Assembly: GCA_020853135.1 (NCBI GenBank)
Contig: JADYZO010000107.1
Coordinates: 62,001-126,000, forward strand
Source of the DNA: Gammaproteobacteria bacterium
GTDB lineage: Bacteria > Pseudomonadota > Gammaproteobacteria > Steroidobacterales > GCA-2729495
Reading direction: 5' to 3'
DNA: 64,000 bases
Below, piece by piece: positions 7,655-33,360 of the stretch (its first letter is position 1; each line of letters opens with the position of its first letter). The notes beneath the pieces were generated by a model, which saw nothing but the letters and a program-made list of their open reading frames with translations, made no database searches and was not told where the DNA came from. The translations under genes were made by a program, and so were the position numbers.

Positions 7655-8280
7655 ATGACGCCGCACCGGGCCGCTGTTCTCCCGCATCACCCGCCTGCCG
7701 CCGGGACGGGCGGGGTGGACGAGGCGGGCCGCGGGCCGCTGGCGGGCGCGGTGGTCGCCGCGGTGGTGGTGCTGGCCCCGGGGCAGCTGATCGAGGGCGT
7801 GCGCGATTCCAAGCTGCTGTCGGCCGCGCAGCGCGAGCGCCTCGCCCTGCGCATCCGCGGCGAGGCGCTGGGCTGGGCGCTCGGTCGTGCGGCAGTGGCC
7901 GAGATCGACCGCCTGAACATCCTCAATGCCACGTTCCTCGCGATGGAGCGCGCCGTGGCCGGGCTGGCAGTCCCGCCGCGGGAACTGGCGGTGGACGGCA
8001 ACCGGGCGCCGCGCTTCGCCGGCTTCGCCGGCGTGGTGCGCACGGTGGTGGGCGGCGACCGTTCCTGTCCGGCGATCGCTGCCGCATCCATCCTCGCCAA
8101 GGTCGCGCGCGATGCGGAGATGCTCGAGCTGGATGCCGCCTACCCGGGCTACGGCTTCGCACGCCACAAGGGCTATCCCACGGCGGAGCACCGCGCGGTG
8201 CTCGCGCAGCGGGGTCCCTGCGCGGCGCACCGGCGCAGTTTCGCGCCGGTGCGCGCGGCGATGCCGGGCGGGGCCTGCGC

Positions 8281-31362: not shown

Positions 31363-31635
31363 ATGACCCCGGAACAGGAGTTCAACCGGCTGCGCTGGCG
31401 CTGCCGGCGCGGCATGCGCGAGCTCGATGCGCTGCTGATGGCCTACGCGGATGCGTGTTATCGCGATGCCGGTCCGGCCGGGCAGGCGGCCTTCCGCGGC
31501 CTCCTATCGCTGCCGGATCCCGAGATTGTCGCCTTGCTGAATGGCAGCCAGCGCAGCGAGGATGCCGGCATCACCCGGCTGGTGGGGCAATTGCTTGCGC
31601 TGCGGGTTCCAGGAGGCAGTCAGCATCCGGCCTGA
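31363..31635 (+). CDS. sdhE: FAD assembly factor SdhE (YgfY/CptB family)
   Basis: A 90-residue all-helical protein needed for covalent flavin attachment to SdhA and FrdA. The diagnostic RGMRELD motif is at residues 17-23 and corresponds to the conserved RGMxExD surface. It directly follows sdhB (10 bases) in the sdh operon and is followed by a ygfX-like frame that overlaps it. Confidence 0.93.
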   Translation: MTPEQEFNRLRWRCRRGMRELDALLMAYADACYRDAGPAGQAAFRGLLSLPDPEIVALLNGSQRSEDAGITRLVGQLLALRVPGGSQHPA

Positions 31636-32026
31636 GGGCCGAGGGGAGTGGCTGGCCGTGGCCGCAGGGCTTGGCACGGCCTGTGCCGTCGCGCTGGCGG
31701 TGGCGGACCTGCCGCTGCCGCTGCGCCTGGTGGCCGGTCTGCTGGTGCTCCTGCGGCTGGGCCGGGAGTTGTACGGGCAGCTCTCGATGCACGATCCCGC
31801 CCGGGTGCTGCGGCTGGCCTGGCTGCCGGGCGGGCGCTGGCAGCTCGAGACCCCGGCTGGACCCGCGCCGGCCCGCCTCGTCCACCGCTGGGGCCATGGC
31901 GGCGGCCCGGTGCTGGCCATGGAATGGGTCTGCGAGGATGGACGCCAGTGCCGGGCATGGGTCTGGCGGCACCGCTGTCCGCCGCGGCAGTGGCGGCGGC
32001 TGCGGGTGCACCTGCGCCTGGCGTAG
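31595..32026 (+). CDS. YgfX-like membrane protein (CptA family)
   Basis: About 143 residues with a pair of membrane helices (WLAVAAGLGTACAVALAV; LRLVAGLLVLLRLG) followed by a cytoplasmic beta-rich part ending in RQWRRLRVHLRLA. Topology, tail and position after sdhE match E. coli YgfX, which was reported as a cell-division toxin (CptA) paired with YgfY/SdhE and is otherwise of unclear role. Identity is low, so this is a family-level call. The start is uncertain: ATG 31541 (overlapping sdhE by 95 bases), TTG 31595 (used here) or GTG 31658. Confidence 0.6.
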   Translation: MRCGFQEAVSIRPEGRGEWLAVAAGLGTACAVALAVADLPLPLRLVAGLLVLLRLGRELYGQLSMHDPARVLRLAWLPGGRWQLETPAGPAPARLVHRWGHGGGPVLAMEWVCEDGRQCRAWVWRHRCPPRQWRRLRVHLRLA

Positions 32027-32077: not shown

Positions 32078-32095
32078 GTCCCGGGCTGTCGGGAC
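32078..32095 (+). terminator. Hairpin just upstream of the sigma-E promoter
   Basis: GTCCCG (32078-32083), loop GGCTGT, CGGGAC (32090-32095): a perfect 6-bp stem that ends one base before the -35 element of the rpoE promoter. It could end transcription from the sdh operon or form a binding site. No U-tract. Confidence 0.3.
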
Positions 32096-32096
32096 C

Positions 32097-32123
32097 GAAC
32101 TTTCACGACGGACCGCAGTCTAT
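32097..32123 (+). promoter_or_regulatory. Sigma-E-type promoter of rpoE
   Basis: GAACTT (32097-32102), a 16-base spacer, then TCTAT (32119-32123) match the sigma-E consensus (GAACTT, about 16 bases, TCTGA/TCAAA). The expected transcription start is near 32130, about 37 bases before the rpoE ATG. This is the classic autoregulated promoter of rpoE. Confidence 0.7.
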
Positions 32124-32166
32124 CGGGCTGATGCGGATCCGTGCCGCTGACCGGCCCCGGATCCGC

Positions 32167-32751
32167 ATGGCAGAGCAGACCAGCGACCAGTTGCTAGTGC
32201 AGACCGTCCAGCAGGGCGATCGGCGCGCATTTGATGCGCTGGTGCTCCGGTACCAGCAGCGCATCGTGAAGCTGGTCATGCGCTACGTGCATGATCCGGT
32301 CGAGGCCCAGGACGTGGCCCAGGAAGCATTCATCAAGGCCTATCGCGCGTTGCCCACCTTCCGTGGCGAGAGCGCCTTCTACACCTGGCTCTACCGCATC
32401 GCCATCAATACCGCCAAGAATTACCTGGTTTCACTGCAGCGCCGCCCGGTGGATTACAGCCTGGACCTGCAGGATCCCGAGAATTACGCAGCCAATGCCC
32501 GCCTGCGCGAGGAGGATTCCCCCGAGGGACTCGCCATGCAGGAGGAACTGCAGCGGACCGTGGAACGCACGATTGCGTCATTGCCCGAGGAATTGCGCAC
32601 GGCCATCATGCTGCGCGAGATCGACGGCCTGAGCTACGAGGAAATCGCCAGCGCCATGGACTGCCCGGTCGGCACTGTGCGCTCGCGCATCTTCCGGGCG
32701 CGTGATGCCATCGATCGGAGCATCGAGGCGATGGCCGGCAACCCACCCTGA
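32167..32751 (+). CDS. rpoE: RNA polymerase sigma factor RpoE (sigma-E/AlgU)
   Basis: ECF sigma factor of the envelope-stress response. 194 residues with the region 2 segments VLRYQQRIVKL and DVAQEAFIKAYRALPTFRG and the region 4 helix-turn-helix LSYEEIASAMDCPVGTVRSRIFRAR. The ATG at 32167 gives the usual length; the open frame extends upstream but lacks conservation there. It is followed by rseA and rseB, its anti-sigma system, and sits after a sigma-E-like promoter. Confidence 0.96.
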   Translation: MAEQTSDQLLVQTVQQGDRRAFDALVLRYQQRIVKLVMRYVHDPVEAQDVAQEAFIKAYRALPTFRGESAFYTWLYRIAINTAKNYLVSLQRRPVDYSLDLQDPENYAANARLREEDSPEGLAMQEELQRTVERTIASLPEELRTAIMLREIDGLSYEEIASAMDCPVGTVRSRIFRARDAIDRSIEAMAGNPP

Positions 32752-32772: not shown

Positions 32773-33360
32773 ATGGGCAAGGTACTCGAAGAACAGCTGT
32801 CCGCACTCCTGGACGGCGAACTGCCGGCGGAGGAAATCGACCTGCTGCTGGCCCGGCTCGATCGCGATCCCGGCAGGCGCGCCACGCTCGGGCGCTACGC
32901 CATGATCGGCGAATGCATCCGTACGGGAACGGCCGTGCCGGGTGCGCTTGGCGTGGCCGAGCGCGTGCGGGCGGCGCTCGCCACGGAGGCGGCGCCCGTG
33001 CCGGAGCGCCGGCGGCTGCCGGGCCGCGCAAGGGGCTGGATGGCCGGTGCACTGGCCGCCTCGGTCGCGCTGGTGGCGGTGCTGCGCATCGTTCCTGGCG
33101 TGCCAGCGCCAGCCGCCCAGGCCGTGGCGGGGGCGCCCGCGCTGGCCCGGGCCGCCGGACTCGAGCCGCTGGCCGAAGTCAGCACCGTCGCCAGCCGGCG
33201 CCTGGCGCCGCAGGCGGCCACCCGCCTGACCGGCTACCTGCTGGCTCACGGCGAGTACGCGAGTGTCATTTCCCGCGGCAATTTCGACTCGCGGCTGGTT
33301 TCGGCGCGCGCGGAACGTGCGTCCTGGCGCCAGCCGGAGGACAGGCCGGATGCCTGGTAG
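32773..33360 (+). CDS. rseA: Anti-sigma-E factor RseA (MucA-like)
   Basis: A bitopic inner-membrane protein that holds sigma-E inactive. 195 residues: the cytoplasmic N-terminal domain (EQLSALLDGEL), a membrane helix at about 89-108 (GWMAGALAASVALVAVL) and a periplasmic domain. Regulated cleavage by DegS and then RseP (encoded at 237-1601) releases sigma-E. The periplasmic end lacks an obvious Y-x-F carboxy-terminus recognisable from E. coli. Confidence 0.9.
   Translation: MGKVLEEQLSALLDGELPAEEIDLLLARLDRDPGRRATLGRYAMIGECIRTGTAVPGALGVAERVRAALATEAAPVPERRRLPGRARGWMAGALAASVALVAVLRIVPGVPAPAAQAVAGAPALARAAGLEPLAEVSTVASRRLAPQAATRLTGYLLAHGEYASVISRGNFDSRLVSARAERASWRQPEDRPDAW

Follow-up and report, generated by a model that had tools for sequence, protein, structure and literature searches.

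A conserved leader hairpin over the rpoE ribosome site as a probable translational brake on sigma-E synthesis from its own promoter

As a stress switch under positive feedback, sigma-E needs restraint if it is not to run away. In E. coli, the self-inhibitory rpoS leader and the rpoH thermometer are hairpins by which the mRNA of a sigma factor conceals its own start, and these leaders are opened by small RNAs and Hfq or by heat. For rpoE itself, control at the ribosome site has also been described: CsrA acts as a repressor of E. coli rpoE at the Shine-Dalgarno sequence (SD) and start codon, according to the passage of PMC7652899 that cites Yakhnin 2017, and the ribosome site of P. aeruginosa algU is bound and repressed by RsmA (PMC4066749). 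A double-stranded stretch close to the start codon is also where polyamines act on E. coli rpoE (PMC4951125, PMC7177335). The locus examined here joins a -35/-10 promoter that is ordinary to a leader hairpin that is plausibly new, start-covering leaders being known elsewhere; in the open-licence literature searched, no paper was recognised as describing this hairpin.

The window (the whole 64,000-nt stretch of DNA that was analysed) carries sdhE (31363), a small ORF, rpoE, rseA and rseB in that order. The rpoE gene (32167–32751, + strand; ATG at 32167–32169, 194 aa plus stop) encodes a product that scores 291 bits against the RpoE equivalog model TIGR02939 (cut-off 236), and it is followed by rseA (32773–33360, + strand; Pfam RseA_N), encoding the anti-sigma-E factor, which served as the control for the rpoE hairpin. 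The ORF between sdhE and rpoE (31541–32026, 161 aa) sits in the place of ygfX-like genes and had no match in Pfam or NCBIfam. Ahead of rpoE, a -35 element GAACTT (32097–32102, + strand) was located by reading the sequence, comparing relatives and scanning the window and the assembly for the pattern. A -10 element TCTAT (32119–32123, + strand) follows after a 16-nt spacer, with G as the preceding base here and in most relatives, and transcription is predicted from the promoter position to start 6–8 nt past the -10 (32129–32131, + strand).

This site, which combines GAACTT, a spacer within 15–17 nt and a TCNNA-type -10 upstream of rpoE, is judged from its sequence to be an ordinary sigma-E promoter of the rpoE-rseA-rseB operon, and presumably an autoregulatory one, because nearly all of 126 distinct relatives have the same element, with its 16-nt spacer, ahead of rpoE/algU. 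Some match to the GAAC...TC pair was found at 118 of 126 distinct gammaproteobacterial rpoE/algU loci, and the spacer was 16 nt at 107 of the 108 loci with high-scoring promoters. GAACTTT with TCTAT or TCTAC predominates among the relatives' rpoE/algU promoters; the E. coli -10 has a TCAAA-like form, as opposed to the TCTAT/TCTAC form at the rpoE promoter here. The full pattern occurs once in the window without mismatches and six times with at most two (0.96 expected), and the only GAACTT-N16-TCTA in the 2.56-Mb draft assembly is the rpoE promoter. A sequence-only reading had proposed a sigma-E promoter and, from it, autoregulation of rpoE, and the TIGR02939 match downstream and the -35/-10 pair with its conserved spacer in relatives point the same way. 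It had also placed both promoter elements at these positions and the arms GTCCCG and CGGGAC of an inverted repeat at 32078–32083 and 32090–32095, in agreement with our direct reading.

That 6-bp repeat (GTCCCG/CGGGAC, 32078–32095, no strand assigned) has the loop GGCTGT (6 nt), and the single base C32096 separates its arm from the -35. It had been suggested to act as an operator or as an insulating terminator for the sdh transcript, with conservation in relatives named as the test. At the genus level, however, the repeat is not conserved: with registers judged by eye from the comparison output, only the sister species L004 keeps it in register, two of the pairs now being G-U, while L002 and L003 carry another repeat near the -35, out of register with this one, and L005, L007, L008 and L013 have no such repeat before it. 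The window holds 347 perfect repeats whose arms reach 6 bp or more and whose loops measure 3–8 nt, versus 252–305 in shuffles, and those of this size occur about once per 185 bp. The shuffle probability of a 6-bp arm inside the 26 bp before the -35 is 0.01, and arms of at least 6 bp precede the -35 at 4 of 109 relatives' loci (1.6 expected). The repeat is followed by CGAACTTTCACG, which contains no U-tract, and it was not reported by the terminator scan. Since the repeat is shared with L004 only, is commonplace and lacks a U-tract, the operator and intrinsic terminator roles are both unsupported and were rejected, the former on conservation and the latter on the U-tract. The small hairpin at the -35 appears to be mostly chance.

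A longer repeat downstream of the promoter, overlooked in the sequence-only reading, is the more informative feature of the locus. It is a perfect 11-bp inverted repeat whose 5' arm, AUGCGGAUCCG (32131–32141, + strand), and 3' arm, CGGAUCCGCAU (32158–32168, + strand), were delimited by repeat search, fold and alignment; the predicted fold and the alignment place an inner 4-bp stem, GCCG/CGGC, with the loop CUGAC (32143–32155, + strand) atop the main stem. The 5' arm begins 8 nt past the -10, where transcription is expected to start, giving a predicted leader of about 37 nt with the hairpin within a base or two of its 5' end. The 3' arm contains an SD-like GGA (32159–32161), the likely Shine-Dalgarno core 5 nt ahead of the AUG, together with the A and U of the rpoE AUG. 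RNA spanning 32130–32190 is predicted to fold at -28.5 kcal/mol (z -3.65), a value equalled by 1 of 200 shuffles, and exposing the SD/AUG zone (-12 to +3) would cost 21.1 kcal/mol, compared with 9.3 in shuffled leaders (z 4.6). Among 1777 window ATG sites, four score as extreme or more so in both energy and pairing. Longer read-through RNAs are also predicted to form the hairpin, with stem-pair probabilities of 0.84–1.0. Perfect 11-bp repeats are equally frequent in the GC-rich window (5 distinct) and in its shuffles (0–9), and because they are no rarer in shuffles, the case for the leader hairpin rests on position and conservation, not on the rarity of the repeat. Rfam gave nothing above the gathering score, the only hit being ncS01 at 17.2 bits (gathering score 58). 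Elsewhere in the window, the longest perfect inverted repeat (12 bp, loop 6) lies at 8225–8254, and the ATG just after it (8261) has a start region predicted to be very stable (-36.6 kcal/mol).

Conservation of the leader hairpin structure within the genus is well supported. Each of the nine genus genomes that yielded an rpoE has a hairpin over the SD zone; together they represent eight distinct leaders, with fold z-scores of -1.9 to -4.2 and opening costs of 12.7–21.1 kcal/mol; no rpoE was found in G001, a genus genome that is 73% complete. In the same eight genomes, opening the rseA start would cost 1.9–11.3 kcal/mol (z -1.4 to 2.1), and the rseA start region is predicted to be open in most of the genus genomes. 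The TCTAY-N7-stem spacing is retained in seven of the eight leaders. In the genus alignment, 83.1% of cells are paired, compared with 28–42% when the partner is slid, and RNAalifold regains 14 of 15 pairs without guidance. Nine cells are changed on both sides (matched by 9 of 500 shuffles); the covariation control, which covers just the eight distinct leader sequences, is only moderate, with the score matched by 32 and the count of doubly changed pairs by 146 of 500 shuffles. All eight leaders are predicted to have a paired SD zone, with SD and start codon lying in a conserved helix and AUG pairing that is partial in some members; L003 pairs its SD zone but leaves the AUG mostly free.

A covariance model of the leader (R1) matched the rpoE leader in all nine rpoE-bearing genus genomes (E 2e-9 to 1e-3). 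Since R1 was built from these same leaders, those matches arise by construction, and the informative part is that there were no other strong matches: the next-best in the family's genomes had E of about 0.006 and above. Two of these next-best candidates (L136 and L137) were examined as second copies of the hairpin and set aside, as they lie inside overlapping long open frames. Computation shows the hairpin to be specific to the rpoE leader, with compensatory changes in the genus and a contrast with the rseA start.

Several other roles could be assigned to such a structure. The equal frequency of 11-bp repeats in shuffles might suggest a DNA operator or a functionless chance repeat of GC-rich DNA, but place and pairing are conserved through the genus while the exact sequence is not, and the substitutions include G-U pairs, as in RNA; we regard this reading as distinctly unlikely. 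Alternatively, the hairpin may chiefly protect the 5' end of the rpoE mRNA, its overlap with the start codon being a by-product of the short leader. Stems at the 5' terminus stabilise mRNA, as in ompA, and a stem at +1 would leave few unpaired 5' bases for pyrophosphohydrolase or RNase E, consistent with a stem that begins exactly 8 nt past the -10 in seven of eight leaders, at most 2 nt from the predicted 5' end. However, protection requires no pairing of the SD or AUG, whereas all eight genus leaders pair the SD zone, and in genus g8 another stem extends to the start region, so that protection as the chief role seems rather doubtful. The leader could also be a target of CsrA/RsmA or the partner of a small RNA, with the stem belonging to the binding site. 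Repression of E. coli rpoE by CsrA and of algU by RsmA, as the relevant passages of PMC7652899 and PMC4066749 report it, makes this worth considering, but the GGA core is missing from the L002 and L008 leaders and in the window lies within the stem instead of a loop. No conserved GGA placed in a loop at the SD was found in these leaders, and we consider such a target or partner unlikely.

Concealment of both SD and AUG, in a gene whose product is heat-responsive in model species, might likewise point to an RNA thermometer that opens on heating and couples temperature to sigma-E synthesis; for Pseudomonas, a review describes the mode of algU induction by heat as undetermined (PMC13104619). Yet SD pairing in the window is predicted to stay complete to 80 °C while the AUG merely frays, the SD zone of other genus members is predicted to be still shut at 60–70 °C, and the GC-rich stems show neither the U-rich nor the bulged architecture of ROSE and FourU elements. 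With no predicted melting in the physiological range, the thermometer was rejected as very unlikely. A leaderless mRNA is more improbable still: the AUG at 32131, at the predicted 5' end, would start an RpoE longer by 12 residues and is in frame in L001, L002 and L004, but it is out of frame in L005, L007 and L013 (ORFs of 48, 13 and 12 codons) and absent from the 5' end of L003 and L008, and the AUGC of the 5' arm is already forced by pairing with the GCAU of the real start. An in-frame extension in only three of eight distinct leaders led us to reject this reading. In L007 and L013, the 5'-arm AUG opens an ORF of 12–13 codons whose stop overlaps or falls just past the rpoE AUG, a layout that could permit translational coupling and that other genus members do not have.

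We favor, as probable, a role for the leader hairpin as a translational brake that limits the sigma-E made from its own promoter. The sigma-E autoregulatory promoter would yield an rpoE-rseA-rseB transcript that begins with the hairpin, and closure over the SD-like GGA and AUG would leave the ribosome site of each new rpoE transcript mostly shut. Translation of rpoE would then be reduced while the rseA start on the same mRNA, predicted to be open in most of these genomes, stays accessible, so that positive transcriptional feedback may be damped and synthesis perhaps tilted toward RseA. Because the structure is predicted to form in read-through RNAs as well, the brake would act on any rpoE transcript. 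If this is true, the first 40 bases of an autoregulated transcript contain a very compact brake that needs no extra factor, and the hairpin could set the ratio of sigma to anti-sigma.

Outside the genus, start-covering leaders have a patchy distribution. The start region is predicted to be closed in most leaders of genus g8, via a different stem that in some reaches +8, and is predicted closed as well in g3 and parts of g5; by fold and opening scores, a start-covering hairpin is lacking in g4, g7 and most of g9 and g6. On the RpoE tree, the hairpin label is clustered yet requires about ten changes. Two g4 leaders (L021 and L022) are longer, show the -10 region repeated in tandem (GGATCAGTCTATCCGG / GGATCAGTTTATCCGG) and have no start-covering hairpin. 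In Pseudomonas, the algU leader is 53 nt long from the same sigma-E promoter, and most leaders (L050–L108) are predicted to be closed, with opening z-scores that, relative to shuffled leaders, mostly lie between about 2 and 4.8 and with CUCC pairing with the GAGGAG Shine-Dalgarno in most species. This SD hairpin was missing from the alifold consensus fold of 34 distinct Pseudomonas-type leaders, and the Pseudomonas parallel, drawn from single-sequence folds of related sequences, is a lead only. It is possible, as a tentative extension, that start-covering leader hairpins recur and have evolved repeatedly in sigma-E/AlgU feedback (in the genus, in g8 and, as a separate case, in most algU leaders of Pseudomonas), with the sigma-E promoter so positioned that its transcript opens with a structure closing the start of the sigma gene, such that the autoregulated transcript would give more anti-sigma than sigma per mRNA. 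The similar, unproven design in Pseudomonas algU leaders makes the proposal testable in laboratory strains.

Set beside known systems, the promoter matches the autoregulatory RpoE/AlgU promoters of Gammaproteobacteria, having GAACTT-N16-TCTA in the same place before rpoE with nothing notable that differs. The E. coli RseD leader peptide (PMC8595263) likewise places a control point just upstream of rpoE, but no conserved upstream reading frame fits the short leader in the genus leaders. Unlike the rpoS and rpoH leaders, the leader here is about 37 nt long, begins with the stem and has an SD predicted to be shut at all temperatures tried. The action of CsrA/RsmA on rpoE/algU, in the passages cited above, is alike in restraining sigma-E synthesis where the SD and start codon lie, but there it is mediated by a protein at GGA sites, whereas here the hairpin would be intrinsic and the GGA is not conserved. 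Finally, E. coli rpoE, a member of the polyamine modulon, also has an initiation region that is double-stranded near the AUG and affects translation; its helix is bulged, is stabilized by polyamines, raises translation and belongs to an mRNA with the SD far from the AUG (PMC4951125, PMC7177335), whereas the structure described here is a perfect stem predicted to bury both the SD and the AUG of a 37-nt leader.
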